Part shown: positions 1 through 9,049 of the stretch, piece by piece
How the letters are laid out: every line of letters starts with the position of its first letter
Numbering within the stretch: position 1 is the stretch's first letter
Assembly: GCA_028693885.1 (NCBI GenBank)
Contig: JAQUUM010000037.1
Location: 1-9,049, forward strand
Length of the DNA: 9,049 nucleotides
DNA from: Bacilli bacterium
GTDB lineage: Bacteria > Bacillota_I > Bacilli_A > ML615J-28 > CAG-698
Reading direction: 5' to 3'
Made by a program: the position numbers and the translations under genes
The notes under the pieces: generated by a model
What the model was told of the DNA's origin: nothing
What the model saw: only the letters and a program-made list of their open reading frames with translations
The model's database searches: none

Positions 1-1179
1 GCTAGTGCTGCGGGAGTTTTTATCGAGGCATTAAAGCAAGATCTAATCACTGAGGTTTATGGAGCTGAGCATGGGATTAAAGGTATTTTAGATGAAAGAT
101 TTTTTGATATAAACAAAGAAGATGCAGAGGAATTGATGTTATTAAAAAATACTCCTTCATCTGCACTAGGTTCAGTTCGTTATAAGTTAGCTAAATTAGA
201 AGATGATGAAAAAGATTACAAGAGAATTCTAGAAGTTTTTAAAAAGTACAACATTAGATATTTTTTCTATAATGGTGGTAATGACTCTATGGATACTTGT
301 AATAAAGTCAGTAAGTATTTAAAAAATTCAGGATATGAATGCAATGTTATTGGTGTTCCTAAAACTATAGATAATGATTTGTTTGGGACTGATCATTGTC
401 CAGGATTTGGAAGTGCAGCAAAATACGTTGCCACTACGATGATGGAATTATATTTAGATACGCATGTATATAATACAGGATTAATTACAGTAGTTGAAAT
501 TATGGGTAGAAATGCAGGTTGGTTAACAGCTGCATCTCATTTGGCTTGTTTAGATGGCAAAGGACCTGATTTAATTTATTTGCCAGAACTTGATTTTGAC
601 TTAGAAAAGTTTTTAGTAGATTTAAAAGAAGTAGCTACTAAAAAGCACAATAAGGTAATTGTGGCTATTTCTGAGGGGATTAAAGATAAGAACGGGAAAT
701 ATATTTCAGAATATGGAACAGAAATTGCGAAAGACTCATTTGGTCATGCTCAATTAGGCGGGGCTGCTTCGGTTTTAGCTGGAATAATTAAAGAAAAATT
801 AGGTGTTAAGGTAAGACCTATTGAGTTTAGTTTGCTTCAAAGATGTGCAGCACATTTAGCATCTAAAGTAGATGTTGAAGAAGCTTTCATGGCTGGTAGA
901 ATGGCTGTTAAGTATGCAGTTGCTGGTGAAACTGATCAAATGGTTATATTTAAAAGAAGTGAGGGCCCTGTTTATAATATATCATATGAGCTTGTAAATG
1001 TTTCTGTTGCTGCTAATACTGAGAAGAAAGTTCCAAGAGAGTGGATTAATGAAGCTGGAAATGGTATTAAACAAGAGTTTGTGGATTATGCTCTTCCACT
1101 TATTCAAGGAGAATCAAAAGCTCCGTTAGTCAATGGTTTACCAAGATTTGCAAAACTTGCCAAAGTTTTAGTTAAATAG
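1..1179 (+). CDS. pfp: PPi-dependent 6-phosphofructokinase (diphosphate--fructose-6-phosphate 1-phosphotransferase), 5'-truncated by window edge
   Basis: Cytoplasmic glycolytic enzyme that phosphorylates fructose 6-phosphate to fructose 1,6-bisphosphate, with PPi as the likely donor. The frame is open from base 1 (first visible residues ASAAGVFIEALK), so the true start lies upstream; family N-termini (GGPT..IN before ASA) suggest roughly 15-20 residues are missing. Numbering the visible residues from 1, the donor loop GGNDS is at 92-96, PKTIDND at 120-126 (with the catalytic Asp of TIDND) and EIMGRNAGW at 166-174. Known family rule: ATP enzymes carry Gly at the second loop position and PGTIDND, whereas PPi enzymes carry Asp there and Lys in PKTIDND; both PPi markers are present. 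The first loop acidic residue is Asn instead of the usual Asp (GGND not GGDD). A strong terminator follows, so it does not read into the next gene. The internal TTG at 133 is not a start. ATP use cannot be excluded without assay. Confidence 0.87.
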   Translation, partial: ASAAGVFIEALKQDLITEVYGAEHGIKGILDERFFDINKEDAEELMLLKNTPSSALGSVRYKLAKLEDDEKDYKRILEVFKKYNIRYFFYNGGNDSMDTCNKVSKYLKNSGYECNVIGVPKTIDNDLFGTDHCPGFGSAAKYVATTMMELYLDTHVYNTGLITVVEIMGRNAGWLTAASHLACLDGKGPDLIYLPELDFDLEKFLVDLKEVATKKHNKVIVAISEGIKDKNGKYISEYGTEIAKDSFGHAQLGGAASVLAGIIKEKLGVKVRPIEFSLLQRCAAHLASKVDVEEAFMAGRMAVKYAVAGETDQMVIFKRSEGPVYNISYELVNVSVAANTEKKVPREWINEAGNGIKQEFVDYALPLIQGESKAPLVNGLPRFAKLAKVLVK

Positions 1180-1285: not shown

Positions 1286-3157
1286 ATGAAAAAATTCATT
1301 AAATTTTTACTAGTTATTATTTTAGGCTTTACAATTATATCTTTAAGTAATATTGAAGCTGCTGAAATTACTGGGGGTTATAATGTGACTAGCACGGAAG
1401 AAGATACTGAATTGTGGTATAATGTTAAACATAAAAGAGAGTTAGCTCAGTCTAGTAGTGCTATTGTTACTGGAAATGCTGCAGGTTCTGGTGGTGGAGG
1501 TTTAGCTGTTCAAGGACAACTTTATCCTCAACAAGTAAACATTCTTGAAATTCCATCTAGTGAGACTGTAAGAATTGTTCCGTGGACAAAATTTATTAGT
1601 GCTTCTGATTGGAAATTGAACACTGTAAAATCTATGGCGGCTGATTTTGAATTAAAAAATTCAGGATGGAAAGTAATAGGAGCTGTAAATGGTGATTTCT
1701 TTGATATTCAGGCAAAAAATCCTTTACCATATCAACCATCTAACACTCATGCTTCTTTTGGTGAATTTTACAAAGTTACAACAGGCAGATCTATTGGGTT
1801 TAGAAACGATGGTTCGACTGACTCACTTGTAGGTGGTATAGCTGCAACAAGATCAGGATTTAAACTAAGTATATATGATTCGGAAAATTCAATAATTGAA
1901 GATTTTGATGTTAATAAGGTTAATCAAGCACCTAGCGAGGGTGAAATCAGTATATATTATTCATATTATACTGCTGAGCATACACCGATCCCTATTGATG
2001 TTGATCCATCTGGGTTAAATGCATACGTAATAGGTAGCGCAGAAAAATCTCTTGCTAATGGAACTGATAATTTCTATGGTAAAGGTGCGATTTCTAGTGT
2101 TACCACTTCAACATTTAATTTAACTAAAGGACAATTTGCTTTAGTTAGTAATAATACTGAAATTAACTCTAATTTATCAAGCGGAACTACTGTTAGAGTT
2201 CAAAGAACTATGACAGGAGCATATGAAGACGTTAATGATTTTATGGGATGTGGTATAACTTTACTAAAAGATTCTGAACCTATTGATTCTGATGTAAACC
2301 GTCACCCAAGAACAGTTGTAGGAAAAAAAGCTGATGGAACTATTGTAATGGCAGTAATTGATGGACGTCAACCAGATACTGATATGTATGGAGCTACTAG
2401 TGATGAAATGCAAGCGATGATGGCACATTATGGTTGTGTTGACGCTTATAACTTAGATGGTGGAGGATCTTCAACATTAATTGTTTTAGAAAACGGTGAA
2501 TTTGTTGTTAAAAACTCTCCTTCAGATGGGAATGAAAGATCTGATGCTAACTGTTTATTGATTGCTGTTAAAGAACCAGTTATTAATCATCAAGTAACTT
2601 TAAATACTCCTACATCAATTAGTTTGTCAATATCTGTCGATAATAATAATGGTCATCCGATTGAAAAATTATTTGTTAAAATGAATAATGAGCTTAAAGA
2701 GATAATTAATAATGAAGTTGTTTTTGAAGGTTTGAGCTCAAATACTAACTATGTATATGAATTCCAATATGAAGATACAACTGAAGATGTTGTTAGATTG
2801 ATCAATTATGGCCTAATAACTAGCGCTAAAGTTAATCCTAAATTTACTGGAATTACTTTCTTACAAGATGGAAATAATTTGAAAATCACGCCTGATTTTA
2901 ATGATCCTGATTTTGCAGTTACTGGAATGTATGTAAGCGTAAATGGAGTAAAAACTTTTACAACTAACGGGATTGCAAACATTATAAATAAAACTTATAG
3001 TGAAGAAGATGAAATAATTTTGTATTATGAAATCATGCTTAACAATGGTAGTCCAAAACAAGTACGTACTTACTACTCTCCTCAGTTTTATAGTTGCCGA
3101 GTTTTAGCAGAAATGAATATGGCAAGAAATTCTGTTATTTCTAATGTTACTAAATAA
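1286..3157 (+). CDS. Secreted phosphodiester glycosidase (NAGPA/DUF2233) domain protein with C-terminal beta-sandwich-like region
   Basis: 623-residue exported protein of the family named for the human uncovering enzyme NAGPA, which hydrolyses sugar phosphodiesters; in bacteria the natural substrate is mostly unknown, with cell-envelope or exopolysaccharide phosphodiesters as candidates. A Sec signal peptide is clear: MKKFIK, hydrophobic stretch about 7-20, probable cleavage after NIEA (residue 25). The catalytic domain runs about 85-428: VNGDFFD (134-140), HPRTVVG (340-346), VIDGRQPDTDMYGAT (357-371) and NLDGGGSSTL (389-398), all family hallmarks. A glycine-rich patch (GSGGGG, 67-72) separates the mature N-terminus from the domain. 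Residues about 433-605 form two beta-rich, fibronectin-III-like stretches, a weak call. No LPXTG motif, lipobox or C-terminal membrane helix is seen, so it is probably released or held non-covalently. The gene is monocistronic, with its own promoter and terminator. Confidence 0.85.
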   Translation: MKKFIKFLLVIILGFTIISLSNIEAAEITGGYNVTSTEEDTELWYNVKHKRELAQSSSAIVTGNAAGSGGGGLAVQGQLYPQQVNILEIPSSETVRIVPWTKFISASDWKLNTVKSMAADFELKNSGWKVIGAVNGDFFDIQAKNPLPYQPSNTHASFGEFYKVTTGRSIGFRNDGSTDSLVGGIAATRSGFKLSIYDSENSIIEDFDVNKVNQAPSEGEISIYYSYYTAEHTPIPIDVDPSGLNAYVIGSAEKSLANGTDNFYGKGAISSVTTSTFNLTKGQFALVSNNTEINSNLSSGTTVRVQRTMTGAYEDVNDFMGCGITLLKDSEPIDSDVNRHPRTVVGKKADGTIVMAVIDGRQPDTDMYGATSDEMQAMMAHYGCVDAYNLDGGGSSTLIVLENGEFVVKNSPSDGNERSDANCLLIAVKEPVINHQVTLNTPTSISLSISVDNNNGHPIEKLFVKMNNELKEIINNEVVFEGLSSNTNYVYEFQYEDTTEDVVRLINYGLITSAKVNPKFTGITFLQDGNNLKITPDFNDPDFAVTGMYVSVNGVKTFTTNGIANIINKTYSEEDEIILYYEIMLNNGSPKQVRTYYSPQFYSCRVLAEMNMARNSVISNVTK

Positions 3158-3258: not shown

Positions 3259-3266
3259 GAGGTGAT
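3259..3266 (+). promoter_or_regulatory. Ribosome binding site that fixes the cupin start
   Basis: GAGGTGAT is complementary over eight bases to the standard 16S rRNA 3' tail (AUCACCUC). It overlaps the in-frame GTG at 3262, which therefore cannot be the start, and places the GTG at 3271 at the right distance. Confidence 0.75.
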
Positions 3267-3270
3267 TAAA

Positions 3271-3591
3271 GTGCTTGAAAAAAAATATTTACTTACGCAA
3301 ACAAACAACAAGCTTATTGAAAAAGTTATTTTAGATGAAAATTTAAATTATATGCATATGGTACTGCCTAAAAATGATAGATTGCCTGAACATTATGCTA
3401 ATTCAAATGTCTATATGACTGTTATTAGAGGAATTGTTTCATTGCAATTAGATGATCAAGAATTAAAGAAATTTGAAAAAGGATCAATAATAGTTATACC
3501 ATATAAAACGAAAATGAATGTTGTGAATTATGACGAAGAAGTTTTAGAAATTACTGTAGTAAAAGTTCCATCACCAGATAAAATTAAATAA
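3271..3591 (+). CDS. Small single-domain cupin protein in operon with hcp
   Basis: 106-residue cytoplasmic protein with one cupin (beta-barrel) domain. Start chosen at GTG 3271 because GTG 3262 lies inside the ribosome binding site. Cupin motif 1 is at about 41-54 (from His41 to Gly54 of VIRG) and motif 2 at 71-86 with correct spacing (G71, P77, N86). Of the usual metal ligands only His41 survives: the second His position holds Ala43, the Glu position Val47, and the motif-2 His position Met82 in PYKTKMNVVN. The site is therefore probably metal-free or altered. Its stop codon overlaps the AAGGAGGA ribosome binding site of hcp, so the two are co-transcribed and may be translationally coupled. 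Similar small cupins are, from general knowledge, found beside hcp in anaerobic Firmicutes; a binding or sensor role in the nitrosative/redox response is inference only, and no enzymatic activity can be assigned. Confidence 0.8.
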   Translation: MLEKKYLLTQTNNKLIEKVILDENLNYMHMVLPKNDRLPEHYANSNVYMTVIRGIVSLQLDDQELKKFEKGSIIVIPYKTKMNVVNYDEEVLEITVVKVPSPDKIK

Positions 3592-3603
3592 GGAGGATTT
3601 AAA

Positions 3604-5232
3604 ATGGGAATGTTTTGTTTTCAATGTCAAGAAACTGCAAAAGGTACAGGGTGTGAGATTCAAGGAGTATGTGGAAAAAAAGAAGATGTAGCAAAGTTGC
3701 AAGACTTATTAATATATTCTTTAAAAGGAGTTGCTAATATTGTTGTTAAAAACAAACTTGAAGTTGATGAGTTAAAAGAAGCTAATTTTGAAACCATAAA
3801 TAGTTTATTTATGACTATTACTAATGCTAATTTTGACGATACATCTTTAATTAATCAAATAAAAAAAGTTTTAAAAGTTAGGGATTCTTTAAGAAATGTT
3901 AATGGGATTGCTAATCATGATTCTACAAATTTTGTGGTTAGTACTAAAGAGGAGATGCTTGAGAAAGCATCAACAATAGGTGTTTTAGCTACAAAAGATC
4001 CGGATATTCGTTCGTTAAGAGAAATGATTACATATGGATTAAAAGGAATTGCTGCATATACTGAGCATGCATATAATGGTGGAAAAACTAATAATGAAAT
4101 TTTTGAGTTTATTTATCAGACATTAGCGAGTATAACTGATGATTCTTTAGGAATTAATGAACTTGTAAATTTAACGTTAAAAACAGGTGAATGTGGTGTT
4201 AAATCAATGCAATTATTAGATTTTGCCAATACTGATAAATATGGTAATCCAAAAATAACAAAAGTAAATATTGGAGTTAGAAAAAATCCAGCTATATTAG
4301 TGTCAGGACATGACCTAGTTGATTTAGAAAGTTTGTTAGAACAAACAAAAGGAACTGGTGTTGATGTTTACACTCATAGTGAGATGTTGCCGGCTCATTA
4401 TTATCCTTTTTTTGAAAAGTACGATAATCTTGTAGGTAATTATGGTAATGCTTGGTGGAAACAAGTAACTGAATTTGAAACTTTTAATGGACCGGTTTTG
4501 TTTACGACAAACTGTATTGTTCCTCCTAGAAAAGAAGAAATTAGAGCTAGAATTTTTACCACAAATTCAACTGGATATCCTGGATGTAAACATATAGTTA
4601 AAGATGCTAATGGTAAAAAAGACTTTTCTGAAATTATTGAAATGGCTAAAAAAATGTCTTCGCCTACTGAAATTGAAACAGGTACTATTATTGGTGGATT
4701 TGCTCATAATCAAGTATTTGAATTAGCAGATAAAGTGGTATCTGAAATTAATGCAGGAAATATTAAAAAATTTATTGTTATGGCGGGCTGCGACGGAAGA
4801 ATGAAATCAAGAGAATATTATACAGAATTTGCTCAAAAACTTCCAAAAGATACAGTTATTTTAACAGCAGGTTGTGCAAAGTATCGTTATAATAAGTTAG
4901 ATTTGGGTGATATTAATGGTATTCCTAGAGTTCTTGATGCGGGACAATGCAACGATTCTTATTCATTAGCGTTGATTGCTTTAAAATTGAAGGAAATTTT
5001 TAAATTAAGCAGTGTTAATGATTTGCCTATTATTTTTAATATAGCTTGGTATGAACAAAAAGCCGTTATAGTGTTATTAGCATTATTATTTTTAGGCTTT
5101 AAAAATATTCATTTAGGCCCGACACTACCTGGATTTTTATCTGAGAATGTTAGAAAAGTATTAATTGAAAACTTTAATATAGCAACTATTAAAACTGTTG
5201 ATGAAGATTTAAAATTATTCTTTGGGGAATAA
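3604..5232 (+). CDS. hcp: Hybrid cluster protein (hydroxylamine reductase / NO reductase-type), class I
   Basis: 542-residue cytoplasmic Fe-S protein (prismane). The family reduces hydroxylamine to ammonia in vitro and is linked in vivo to NO detoxification and, in E. coli, protein S-nitrosylation. The N-terminal cluster motif is C5-X2-C8-X8-C17-X5-C23, the class I pattern of strict anaerobes that binds a [4Fe-4S] cluster, as opposed to CX2CX11CX6C of facultative bacteria. The hybrid-cluster ligands are all visible: H236, E260, C304, C396 (the persulfide cysteine position, in MAGCDGR), C424, C449, and E484/K486 in WYEQKA. Their spacing (24, 44, 92, 28, 25, 35, 2) nearly equals that of the Desulfovibrio protein. 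Length is normal for class I. The ATG at 3604 lies 7 bases after AGGAGG. No NADH-dependent Hcr partner gene is present, so the electron donor is encoded elsewhere. Second gene of an operon with the cupin. Confidence 0.96.
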
Positions 5233-5329: not shown

Positions 5330-6688
5330 ATGAATGAATTAAAATTAAATGAAATAATTTTTATTACAATTAAAAGAATGGGAATAAATGGTGAAGGAAT
5401 AGGCTATTATAAAAGATTAGCCGTTTTTGTCGAAAATGCATTAGTAGATGAAGAAGTAGAAGTTAAAATTACAAATACTTATGATAAATATGCAACTGCA
5501 GAGATTGTTAAAATTAAAAAAATATCGCCATCAAGAGTTAAGCCTAGATGTCCTTACTATGAAAAATGTGGTGGATGCCAATTACAACATCTTGAGTATG
5601 AAGAACAATTAAATCAAAAGAAAAATATACTAATTTATTCCTTAGAAAGATACTTAGATGGTTTTAATAAAATAAGAATAAATGATACTATTGGTATGAA
5701 TGAACCATACTTCTATAGGAATAAAACCCAATTACCCGTTAGGCATGATGGTGAAAAGGTTGTATCTGGGCTTTATGCAAAAAATACAAACAAGTTGGTT
5801 TATATTGATGAATGTATTGTTGAGAATAAATTAGTTCAAAATACTCTTAAAAATGTTTTGGATGTTTTAACTAAAACTAATGTTGATATCTATAATCCAA
5901 GATATAAACAAGGTTTGTTAAGATATGTCGTTATTAGAGGATTTGAAGAAACTTCTGAGGCTCAAGTAACTTTAGTCACTATGGAATTAGATTCGAAAAT
6001 TTCAAAAGCTTTAAAAATGATTGCTAAAATAGAAAATGTAAAATCTGTGAATTACTGTATTAATAATGATATAAAAGGTATTGAAATATTAAATGATAAA
6101 ATAGTTAATACTGAAGGGGTTGGTACCGTTAATGGAAAACTAAAAGATTTGTCTTTTGATATTTTACCTAACAGTTTTTTTCAATTAAATACTAAGCAAA
6201 CTATTGTTTTATATGATGAAATTAAAAAAGCTATTAATCCAAAAGGTGATGAAAAGGTATTAGATTGCTATTGTGGTATTGGAAGTATAGGGCTTTTTCT
6301 TGCTTCATCTGTTAAAGAAATAAGGGGAATTGATAATAATAAAGGTAATATTGAAAATGCTAAGAATTTTGCTGAAAAAAATTCAATAAAAAATGCACAA
6401 TTCTATTATGGAAATATTTTGCCACATCTAAATGCTTTTTCAAAAAATGATTATCTACCTGATGTTGTAATAGTAGATCCGCCTAGAAAAGGATTAGAAC
6501 TTAATTTTATTAATTACTTACAAAAAAATAGGATAAAAAAAATCGTATATGTTTCATGTAACACTTCAACACTAGCAAAAAACTTGAATCATTTACAAAA
6601 AGATTATATTATTAGATATATTCAACCGATAGATATGTTTCCTCAAACATCTAATGTAGAATGTGTTGTATGTCTTGAAAGAAGATAA
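5330..6688 (+). CDS. rlmD: 23S rRNA (uracil-5-)-methyltransferase, RlmD/RlmCD (RumA) family
   Basis: 452-residue SAM-dependent enzyme forming 5-methyluridine in 23S rRNA. The order is: TRAM RNA-binding domain about 5-64; [4Fe-4S] ligands C74-X5-C80-X2-C83 and C162; SAM-binding Rossmann domain with LDCYCGIGSIGL (311-322) and the acidic GIDNN (333-337); IVDPPRKGL (381-389); the catalytic nucleophile Cys410 in VYVSCN; and the base Glu444 in QTSNVECV. The usual His-His or Asn-His before VE is Ser-Asn here, a small variation. Length matches the family. In Gram-positives a single homologue (RlmCD) modifies both U747 and U1939, while E. coli RlmD makes only U1939, so the exact target is undetermined and RlmCD is as likely as RlmD. 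No clear hairpin terminator follows, but the next gene has its own promoter. Confidence 0.92.
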   Translation: MNELKLNEIIFITIKRMGINGEGIGYYKRLAVFVENALVDEEVEVKITNTYDKYATAEIVKIKKISPSRVKPRCPYYEKCGGCQLQHLEYEEQLNQKKNILIYSLERYLDGFNKIRINDTIGMNEPYFYRNKTQLPVRHDGEKVVSGLYAKNTNKLVYIDECIVENKLVQNTLKNVLDVLTKTNVDIYNPRYKQGLLRYVVIRGFEETSEAQVTLVTMELDSKISKALKMIAKIENVKSVNYCINNDIKGIEILNDKIVNTEGVGTVNGKLKDLSFDILPNSFFQLNTKQTIVLYDEIKKAINPKGDEKVLDCYCGIGSIGLFLASSVKEIRGIDNNKGNIENAKNFAEKNSIKNAQFYYGNILPHLNAFSKNDYLPDVVIVDPPRKGLELNFINYLQKNRIKKIVYVSCNTSTLAKNLNHLQKDYIIRYIQPIDMFPQTSNVECVVCLERR

Positions 6689-6715
6689 CAATTTCATAAA
6701 TTAGTTGTTTAATAA

Positions 6716-6744
6716 TTACATTTTCAATATGCTTATGTTATAAT
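6716..6744 (+). promoter_or_regulatory. Extended -10 promoter of the heliorhodopsin gene
   Basis: Perfect TATAAT (6739-6744) preceded by TG at 6736-6737 (TGT TATAAT, extended -10). At 17 bases upstream only a weak -35, TTACAT (6716-6721), is present, which extended -10 promoters tolerate. The predicted transcript starts near 6751, leaving a leader of about 45 bases. Confidence 0.65.
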
Positions 6745-6780: not shown

Positions 6781-6796
6781 TAATGAGGAGAGATAT

Positions 6797-7591
6797 ATGA
6801 AAGAAAAAATTATTGATTTTAAGTATTTAAGAAAGTTTAACCTTATTATGGGTGGCCTACATTTTATTCAAGGTTTGTTGATGGTTTTATTTGCTTATAC
6901 TATTGTTGCAGATAGTCCATTTGCTGGCTTTAAACCCCAAATTGTTCAAAATTATCTAACATATGATCCAGTTTTGCAAACACTTGTCCCTGCTTCAAAG
7001 GCATTGTTTGAATTACCTTTTGCTTTGCTTGTTGCTTGTTTTTTGTTTTTGTCTGCAATTGCACATTTTGTTGTTTCAGCTCCGAAAATAAATGACATTT
7101 ATAATAATGACTTAACTAAGAATATAAATAAATTCCGCTGGTTTGAGTATGCTTTGAGTTCATCTATAATGATTGTATTAATTGCAACTTTATTTGGTGT
7201 TTTTGATATTGCGTCTTTAATTTTAATTTTCGGCTTGAATGCATCAATGAATTTGTTTGGATATACTATGGAAGCTATCAATCAAAAAAGAGATAAGATA
7301 GATTGGAGTTCATTTGTTTTTGGCTCAATAGCAGGAATTATTCCTTGGATAATTATTTTGATATATATGTTTGGACCTATTGATTTAGGACAAGTGCCTT
7401 GGTTTGTTTGGGCTATTATTGGAACTTATTTTGTGGCTTTTAATACTTTCCCTATTAATATGGTTTTACAATATCTTAAAGTTGGGAAATGGAAAAACTA
7501 CCTATATGGTGAAAGAGTTTATATTATTCTAAGTTTAGTTGCTAAATCAATTCTTGCTTGGTTAGTTTTATTTGGAGCAATGCAACCATAG
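6797..7591 (+). CDS. Heliorhodopsin (type 3 rhodopsin)
   Basis: 264-residue seven-helix membrane photoreceptor binding retinal. Helices lie at about 14-36, 70-94, 112-134, 139-159, 170-192, 200-225 and 238-260; the long stretch 37-69 between helices 1 and 2 matches the extended A-B loop of the family. Against the reference heliorhodopsin 48C12 as I know it, the Schiff-base lysine (K241) is K250 in LSLVAKSILAW, the counterion (E107) is E117 in RWFEYALSSSIMIVLIA, and His23 and His80 are H22 and H90. FGLNASMNLFG (145-155), FGSIAGIIPW (175-184) and GKWKNYLYGERVYI (230-243) are also near-identical family blocks. Lysine/arginine-rich N-terminus fits the family's inverted topology (N-terminus inside). 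Family members do not pump ions in most tests and are regarded as sensors in monoderm bacteria. No kinase or transducer domain is fused. No retinal or carotenoid gene is nearby. Start is set by GAGGAG 6 bases upstream. Probably co-transcribed with the EamA gene 49 bases downstream. Confidence 0.96.
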   Translation: MKEKIIDFKYLRKFNLIMGGLHFIQGLLMVLFAYTIVADSPFAGFKPQIVQNYLTYDPVLQTLVPASKALFELPFALLVACFLFLSAIAHFVVSAPKINDIYNNDLTKNINKFRWFEYALSSSIMIVLIATLFGVFDIASLILIFGLNASMNLFGYTMEAINQKRDKIDWSSFVFGSIAGIIPWIIILIYMFGPIDLGQVPWFVWAIIGTYFVAFNTFPINMVLQYLKVGKWKNYLYGERVYIILSLVAKSILAWLVLFGAMQP

Positions 7592-7640: not shown

Positions 7641-8582
7641 ATGGCAAACAAAAATAAAACTATAGCAATTATTTCGGCAATTTTAGTTCAAGTGATTTTT
7701 GGCTTTAGTTTCCTATTCACTAAAATGTCTACTGATATTGCTTCGCCTTTAATTCTATTGAGTTGGCGTTTTGCCACTGCATTTATTTTTTTAAATTTAT
7801 TAATAGTTTTTAAATTAGTAAAAATAAATTTTAAACAACTAAATATAAAAAATTTATTATTATTATCAAGCTTATACCCTTTAGCATATTTTGTTTTTGA
7901 GACTTATGGTGTCCAGTATACTACTGCATCAGAAAGTAGTATTATAATAGCTTTGATACCCATAGCTACTCTTGTTTTCACAAATATTACGATTAAAGAA
8001 AAACCTAAAAAAATTCAAATAATAGGAATATTATTAGCTTTTTTTGGGGTAGTTTTTGTAGTACTAGTAAAAGACGTTGAAACTTCTTTTAGTATTTTAG
8101 GTTATTTTTTGTTAATTTTATCTGTTATATCCTTTGCTATTTATTCACCTTTAGCTCAAAAGAGTAATAAATCTACTCAAATAGAAAAAACATATTTTAT
8201 GTTGGCTATTGGAACTTTATTTTTCACTGTTTTTGCTCTACTTGAAAGTTATCAAAAAGGTAATATGTTAGAATATTTTAAATTGCCTTTTATTAATTTA
8301 AATTTTTTGCTTTCTATTTTATATTTAGGGATTATAGCATCAGTTGGAGCCTTTTTGATGATTAATTATTCTATCTCAGTTTTAGGTTCTAATAAAACAG
8401 TTAGTTTTAATGGAATATGCACAATTGTTGCGGTTAGTGCTAGTATTATATTTTTGAAAGAAGAGTTTAATGTTTTACAGATATTTGGAATGCTTTTAAT
8501 ATTAAGTGGAGTTTACATAGCTAATTTTGTTTATAAGAAAAATTCTAATAGTTCAATTGTTTTAGAATTTGACAAAAATTGA
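7641..8582 (+). CDS. DMT-superfamily (EamA) transporter
   Basis: 313-residue integral membrane protein with two tandem EamA repeats of five helices each (about 8-143 and 152-297), the architecture of drug/metabolite exporters such as RhaT- or YdcZ-unrelated EamA permeases. Repeat 1 shows GFSFLFTK (21-28) and the TM2 SWRF (41-44); repeat 2 ends with the typical FLKEEFNVLQIFGMLLILSG block, split here as KEE at 273-275 and ILSGVYIAN at 287-295. Substrates in this superfamily (amino acids, nucleosides, sugars, drugs) cannot be read from sequence. The ATG at 7641 follows AAAGGTGA by 4 bases. The 49-base gap after the heliorhodopsin gene has no terminator and no promoter with a usable spacing, so both are probably on one mRNA. 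It ends in TGA, which shows that TGA is a stop in this organism. Confidence 0.9.
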   Translation: MANKNKTIAIISAILVQVIFGFSFLFTKMSTDIASPLILLSWRFATAFIFLNLLIVFKLVKINFKQLNIKNLLLLSSLYPLAYFVFETYGVQYTTASESSIIIALIPIATLVFTNITIKEKPKKIQIIGILLAFFGVVFVVLVKDVETSFSILGYFLLILSVISFAIYSPLAQKSNKSTQIEKTYFMLAIGTLFFTVFALLESYQKGNMLEYFKLPFINLNFLLSILYLGIIASVGAFLMINYSISVLGSNKTVSFNGICTIVAVSASIIFLKEEFNVLQIFGMLLILSGVYIANFVYKKNSNSSIVLEFDKN

Positions 8583-8611
8583 CACTCGCGTTTTGCGAGT
8601 GTTTTTGTTTT
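8582..8611 (+). terminator. Rho-independent terminator of the heliorhodopsin-EamA unit
   Basis: ACACTCGC (8582-8589) pairs with GCGAGTGT (8595-8602), loop GTTTT, tail TTTTGTTTTT. It is the most GC-rich hairpin of the window, and its first base is the last base of the EamA stop codon. Confidence 0.92.
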
Positions 8612-8711: not shown

Positions 8712-9049
8712 ATGATTTTAAGACGTAAAATTAGAATTATGTTAGGGTTCATGCAATTACTTGTTTTTGTTTGTTTGATTGCTTTTGCTTTGCCGATTTC
8801 AACTGATGTAAATGCTGCTAACCCAGTTGGGCTAGGAGATATAGGGTTTACTGAAACAAGAAGTATATCACCAGATGTTGAATTAAGTTATTATATGGGA
8901 GTTAACACTTTGGGCGAACAAAAAGCTCATACCATTACGTTTGCAAAAGGTAGCTTAGCACCTGTTGCTTCTTATGGTAATTTTTTACGAGGTGGAGAAA
9001 CCGTACAACAGTTAGCAAATATTGAAAGATTAGCTAGAGGAGGTACAGT
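8712..9049 (+). CDS. Exported protein, probable second phosphodiester glycosidase-type protein, cut by window end
   Basis: The first 112 codons are visible, with no stop before the window ends. A Sec signal peptide is clear: RRKIR, hydrophobic 11-30, probable cleavage after DVNA (residue 35). The mature start reads ANPVGLGDIGF. Residues 70-106 (KAHTITF..., then ETVQQLANIERLA) resemble the opening strand and helix of the NAGPA-type domain in the gene at 1286, where a strand (QVNILEI) is followed by NTVKSMAADFE and then the NGDFFD motif; here the corresponding motif would lie beyond the window. The family call is therefore tentative. ATG 8712 is the only start codon that keeps the whole signal peptide in frame, yet it lacks a ribosome binding site and depends on the leader upstream. 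Own promoter and cre-like site suggest carbon-source control, by inference. Confidence 0.6.
   Translation, partial: MILRRKIRIMLGFMQLLVFVCLIAFALPISTDVNAANPVGLGDIGFTETRSISPDVELSYYMGVNTLGEQKAHTITFAKGSLAPVASYGNFLRGGETVQQLANIERLARGGT

Follow-up and report, generated by a model that had tools for sequence, protein, structure and literature searches.

The function of heliorhodopsins is largely unsettled, and the source of pigment in rhodopsin-bearing bacteria that have no retinal genes is a question already in print (PMC7734400). Both questions are raised by the stretch of DNA analyzed here, referred to as the window, which is a whole contig of 9049 bases (C113) from the metagenome-assembled genome G000 of a member of the class Bacilli (1.34 Mb in 207 contigs, 86.5% complete, 3.4% contamination). 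An earlier note, made from the sequence, had described an intact heliorhodopsin in what looked like an anaerobic, low-GC host, where light sensing and a supply of retinal would not be expected. What might the protein do there, and with which pigment? The answer that we favor is a tentative one, falling a little short of even confidence: it would be a membrane light sensor, likely operating on scavenged retinal and most likely acting on a protein partner, for which an EamA exporter is the nearest candidate. Eight genes follow one another on one strand of the window, in the order listed here together with putative expression signals:

1..1179, + strand: PPi-type phosphofructokinase, its 5' end lost at the contig start (NF010675, 532 bits vs 273)
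1286..3157, + strand: NAGPA-domain phosphodiester glycosidase, 623 aa (a homologue adjoins rlmD in 6 of 11 same-family loci)
3262..3591, + strand: small cupin-like protein, 109 aa (Cupin_2, 20.5 bits, under the cut-off of 27.2)
3604..5232, + strand: hybrid cluster protein (hydroxylamine reductase), 542 aa (Pfam, NCBIfam)
5330..6688, + strand: RlmD, 23S rRNA (uracil-C5)-methyltransferase, 452 aa (NCBIfam; best matches in the window's own family, 44 relatives searched)
6715..6744, + strand: promoter-like ATTACA-18-TATAAT, the second hexamer preceded by TG, between rlmD and the heliorhodopsin gene (10/12 matches)
6785..6790, + strand: Shine-Dalgarno-like GAGGAG, 6 nt upstream of the heliorhodopsin ATG, as read from the sequence
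6797..7591, + strand: heliorhodopsin, 264 aa, ATG start, stop codon within the range; K250 (SxxxK motif, S246-K250) as the predicted retinal lysine and E117 as the predicted counterion
7641..8582, + strand: EamA/DMT-family transporter, 313 aa, 49 nt 3' of the heliorhodopsin gene (Pfam, NCBIfam)
8581..8603, + strand: intrinsic-terminator-like hairpin and T tract where the EamA gene ends
8712..9047, + strand: start of a protein with a hydrophobic N-terminus, truncated by the contig end (no Pfam match)

The picture of the host drawn by the earlier note is borne out in its main elements. The GC fraction is 0.25-0.34 in 1-kb windows, the phosphofructokinase scores as the PPi type, and the hybrid cluster protein combines a hydroxylamine reductase family match with the N-terminal cysteine spacing C-x2-C-x8-C-x5-C, which we take to be that of class I. 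The anaerobic lifestyle proposed from these enzymes agrees with the genome at large, since neither heme-copper (COX1) nor bd terminal oxidases were found in G000 at its 86.5% completeness, and a hydrogenase domain is represented by a fragment of 78 positions where a contig ends. A PADLOC scan of four window proteins gave no match that would indicate a role in defence. As an observation on the gene order, the cupin-like and hybrid cluster protein genes (3262-5232) lie between those for the NAGPA protein and RlmD, and the pair may be an insertion, because the latter two genes adjoin in 6 of the 11 same-family loci.

That the window encodes an intact heliorhodopsin is well established. The protein matches the family profile PF18761, the Pfam search that the earlier note had proposed as a check, over its whole length (positions 1-242 of 242, 329.8 bits, E 1.1e-98), and its score with the NCBIfam heliorhodopsin equivalog NF038020 is 315 bits (cut-off 100). 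When used as the query of a PDB sequence search, it retrieves six matches up to E = 1, all of which are heliorhodopsins, the best having an E-value of 3.4e-56. The AlphaFold model (mean pLDDT 79.5) has the fold of solved heliorhodopsins, overlaying on 6is6 with TM-scores of 0.88/0.93 and an rmsd of 1.9; it displays a two-strand hairpin after helix 1 and what we interpret as the seven rhodopsin helices, the second being broken at residue 95. Known heliorhodopsins typically have such a β-hairpin following helix 1. An inverted topology, with the N-terminus inside, would follow only from homology. The closest homologue, P0002, is 72% identical to the window protein and likewise keeps the conserved positions; these two share a two-residue insertion at 38-39 and Y156, whereas the other 118 of the best 120 database matches have no insertion and a leucine.

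All of the residues that had been named as signatures (H22, H90, E117, N148, W184, K250, and W255) are present, and they are near-invariant among 84 distinct heliorhodopsin loci. The alignment comprises 86 rows, namely the window and 85 fetched loci, in which two loci are present twice, leaving 84 distinct ones with the window included; nine of 28 further loci from the class proved identical to named loci (e.g., L131 = L003, L142 = L013) and were counted once. The E117, H90, and W184 columns are uniform in 86/86 rows, those of K250, H22, and W255 in 85 with a single gap each, and that of N148 in 85, the remaining row having threonine. The serine of the SxxxK motif (S246 column) is found in 84 of 86 rows, with one arginine and one gap. 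Among the best 120 database matches, the window protein counted among them, all seven named residues occur in 120 of 120. The segment S246-LVA-K250 aligns with the SxxxK motif of the solved heliorhodopsins, and the mismatch between K250 and the retinal lysine that the earlier note had regarded as fatal to its reading is absent. E117 aligns with E108 of TaHeR, a column in which the 7clj chain has aspartate (an E108D mutant, according to its title).

The host would presumably need retinal, for which three sources had been considered: a pathway elsewhere in the genome, scavenging, or occasional exposure to oxygen and light. The search of G000 covered brp/blh, RPE65-type oxygenases, and phytoene synthase, and neither brp/blh (PF15461) nor phytoene synthase (PF00494) was found in this 86.5%-complete genome, which leaves the first source without support; scavenging, an unrecognized pathway, or occasional exposure to light and oxygen may account for the supply. 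The same families were examined in 56 heliorhodopsin genomes, made up of six from a genome search and 50 of 80 named loci, with isolates and distinct lineages favored; the window protein served as the query for gathering the set, which is not a random sample. None of the 56 contains brp/blh above the cut-off (two weaker matches reach ~21 bits vs 28), and nor do any of 14 control genomes, so that the sensitivity of this search is without a positive control. The RPE65-type oxygenase PF03055 is likewise absent from all 56, G000 included, while phytoene synthase exceeds the cut-off in 10 of 56, with none in G000 or in the five others from the genome search. Peloplasma aerotolerans and Trichococcus flocculiformis are among the members of the set for which the searches detected no retinal genes. 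COX1 occurs in one genome and cytochrome bd in three, the COX1 genome among them, and both oxidase families are absent in 53 of 56; a hydrogenase domain is found in 33, one of which is G000. The frame carrying the COX1 match (L116, G043:C25) contains nine TGA codons, its neighboring frames are TGA-rich, and it looks mitochondrial. This match in G043, a genome that also has cytochrome bd, is probably contaminating mitochondrial-type DNA.

Far from setting this host apart, an intact heliorhodopsin in an apparent anaerobe that has no retinal genes is thus what most of the examined relatives show. The earlier expectation that light sensing would be out of place in such a bacterium finds no support, given the 53 genomes without either oxidase and the published descriptions of heliorhodopsins from strict anaerobes among the Firmicutes (PMC8612252). 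Firmicutes that have a rhodopsin and lack blh are also in print, being mentioned as data not shown in PMC7734400. Since the retinal site is conserved across the 86 rows and the 120 matches although neither of the retinal-cleaving families searched was found in these genomes, the sequences suggest that retinal binding is probably still under selection and that the pigment is probably external.

Three other accounts of the gene's presence have to be weighed against this one. The host could make its own retinal via an unrecognized route, with the heliorhodopsin functioning as a normal sensor there, and endogenous retinal has indeed been reported in Aurantimicrobium minutum, a bacterium without blh or diox1 (PMC7734400). 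According to the same source, however, that bacterium has C50 carotenoid genes, whereas the missing phytoene synthase match in G000 means that no C40 carotenoid backbone is seen, and the route proposed there requires an oxygenase, in a host for which no terminal oxidase was detected; we consider such a route improbable. The contig could also be a contaminant wrongly binned into G000, as might occur in a bin of 207 contigs with 3.4% contamination, but the contig fits its bin: the 18 best non-self matches of the neighboring RlmD all come from the same family (44 relatives searched), and the NAGPA gene has its place beside rlmD in 6 of the 11 top same-family matches that were read as loci (56-62% identity). 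The phosphofructokinase gene adjoins rlmD in one of these 11. Although the search covered relatives only, and a better match may exist outside the class, we give contamination hardly any credence.

The third account, according to which the gene is a horizontally gained passenger with no light function in this host and heading for loss, is unlikely. The distribution of heliorhodopsin is patchy: of the family's 27 other genomes, 3 have it, never on the contig carrying their best rlmD match, and the four family heliorhodopsins do not form one clade in a tree (AU p = 0.03), a result weakened by long branches. Repeated gain, or gain and loss, is thus likely. In the class, a heliorhodopsin match above the cut-off is present in 70 of 395 genomes, and some copies, such as those of G238, G379, and G173, are broken. 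Against a passenger speak the intact reading frame and the retained conserved positions, both of the window protein and of its closest homologue P0002. Two observations from the class may be recorded here. Copies broken by internal stops or split matches occur in G238, G379, G173, and G391 and are signs of loss, and three genomes of genus g85 (G175, G298, and G381), 0.7-1.0 Mb in size, show an unusual expansion to three heliorhodopsin genes without internal stops.

The position next to rlmD invites a comparison with other loci, because 9 of the 84 distinct loci, the window included, have rlmD no more than six genes away from heliorhodopsin. A vertically inherited rlmD-heliorhodopsin block that the window would share with Izemoplasmatales can be rejected, as the window RlmD is 30-40% identical to the copies in those loci, compared with 56-62% for the 11 same-family ones that were read. 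Neither heliorhodopsin nor an EamA gene was found downstream of rlmD in the 8 of 11 same-family loci that have more than 1 kb of downstream sequence, the other three (L108, L109, and L111) having fewer than 300 bases. The adjacency is therefore treated as lineage-specific or coincidental. In five other loci (L002, L025, L037, L047, and L055, at ~7.7-13.8 kb in each), the heliorhodopsin gene lies between two rlmD paralogues, and a Na/H-exchanger-family gene adjoins it in three of them (L025, L037, and L055); in L120, one of the further loci from the class, rlmD precedes heliorhodopsin and the exchanger follows.

A scavenged-retinal sensor, the reading that we prefer, could operate as follows. 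The heliorhodopsin would bind retinal scavenged from other organisms at K250, with E117 as the counterion, and after activation by light it might regulate the EamA exporter. The two genes are predicted to share a transcript, judging from the 49-nt gap between them, in which no terminator-like site was found, and from the terminator-like hairpin after the EamA gene. The promoter-like site at 6715..6744 is a weak one, no better than many chance sites, given that the region has 27 such sites vs a mean of 15.3 in shuffled sequence. The putative step from sensor to partner is modeled on published heliorhodopsins, which bind the product of a neighboring gene and modulate it, whether a photolyase (PMC9769723), a glutamine synthetase (PMC9529153), or an ABC transporter (PMC11109279). 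EamA as the partner is the weakest step of the explanation and is weakly supported, because EamA, a very large family, is encoded within six genes of heliorhodopsin in just 3 of the 84 distinct loci: it is both adjacent and on the same strand in the window only, being next to heliorhodopsin but on the other strand in L003 and six genes away in L036. A further EamA case among the class loci, L131, is the L003 locus again.

Two functions known from other heliorhodopsins compete with regulation of the EamA exporter. The protein could bind a class II CPD photolyase and broaden the action spectrum of that enzyme, as the heliorhodopsin of Trichococcus flocculiformis does. In favor of this role, a photolyase is found in 41 of the 56 heliorhodopsin genomes vs 4 of 60 genomes consisting of the window's genome and 59 relatives, within which it occurs in 2 of 6 with heliorhodopsin vs 2 of 54 without (Fisher p = 0.046), and 22 of the 84 distinct loci have a photolyase gene no more than six genes from heliorhodopsin. 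Furthermore, R162 and K227 of TfHeR, reported to be essential for photolyase binding (PMC9769723), are matched by R165 and K228, and D100 takes the place of E97. On the other hand, there is no photolyase among the eight window proteins, and none was found in G000 (86.5% complete) or in two of the family's three other genomes with heliorhodopsin. The binding residues had to be discarded as a marker of photolyase partners, since they are as frequent where photolyase is missing, with positive residues at the R162 and K227 positions in 11/15 and 14/15 genomes without photolyase vs 27/41 and 32/41 with it. Such a helper role is unlikely in this host, with a slim chance of being correct. A proton transporter driven or gated by light, of the kind represented by the viral V2HeR3, would belong to the same family, and the counterion and lysine are retained, but the published hallmark residues are absent. 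Based on the PDB-match alignment and the residues given in PMC9448325, from which the positions were placed by hand, E191 of V2HeR3 (I199 in TaHeR) corresponds to Y211 and W195 (F203 in TaHeR) to F215, both invariant in the 86 rows; proton transport was accordingly rejected and strikes us as extremely improbable.

Outside the window, a further neighbor of heliorhodopsin genes is a member of the "tocopherol cyclase" family PF14249, encoded 25-49 nt directly 3' of heliorhodopsin on the same strand in 6 of the 84 loci (L013:10815-11786, L023:9865-10818, L024:8142-9095, L029:10853-11818, L049:6335-7300, and L072:892-1866). The L013 protein, from Peloplasma, is predicted to be lipocalin-like, and a fold search relates it to AttH and related cyclases/hydratases, whereas a PDB search by sequence with the tocopherol-cyclase-like profile gave 0 matches. 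It is a candidate for a protein that handles a retinoid, and no paper naming both heliorhodopsin and the tocopherol cyclase family was found in the open PMC literature.

These findings sharpen the question of pigment supply: the two retinal-cleaving families searched are above the cut-off in 0 of 56 genomes and both oxidase families are missing from 53, yet the lysine and the counterion are near-invariant. A speculative picture, with little chance of being right, would make these anaerobes a guild of retinal auxotrophs, pigmented only where oxygen-using neighbors leak retinal, because the known retinal-forming enzymes need oxygen. Heliorhodopsin might then detect the coincidence of light with an oxic zone close by, raising an alarm that puts exporters and repair into a protective state, and in some hosts the lipocalin-like protein of the tocopherol cyclase family might capture and deliver the retinoid. 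Since named strains are among the hosts (Trichococcus, Proteiniclasticum, Fusibacter, and Peloplasma), both scavenging and the role of this neighbor are testable. New in this work are the window member itself, the tallies for the 56 genomes, and the neighbor of lipocalin-like fold.

Compared with known systems, the window protein has the family, the lysine, and the counterion in common with V2HeR3 (PMC9448325), from which it differs at Y211 and F215. It is a close homologue of TfHeR with equivalents of R162 and K227, but unlike the TfHeR system (PMC9769723) it comes without a photolyase gene, either in the window or as found in G000. The predicted co-transcription with a transporter gene resembles the arrangement of OcHeR and its ABC transporter (PMC11109279), although the partner here would be a single EamA/DMT protein, a type absent from the ten neighbor groups listed in that source. 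With the MORN-heliorhodopsins of strictly anaerobic Firmicutes, as described in PMC8612252, it shares the setting of an apparently anaerobic low-GC bacterium, whereas the window protein has no N-terminal fusion (264 aa, with PF18761 as its sole match). Finally, the heliorhodopsins of Trichococcus, Proteiniclasticum, Izemoplasmatales, and Acholeplasmataceae (PF18761/NF038020) differ from it in having neither the insertion at 38-39 nor Y156, both of which it shares with P0002, and no photolyase was found in its host; they are 61-69% identical to it in the best segment, nearly over the full length, its host lacks both oxidase families, as do 53 of the 56 genomes, and the residues of the retinal site are the same.
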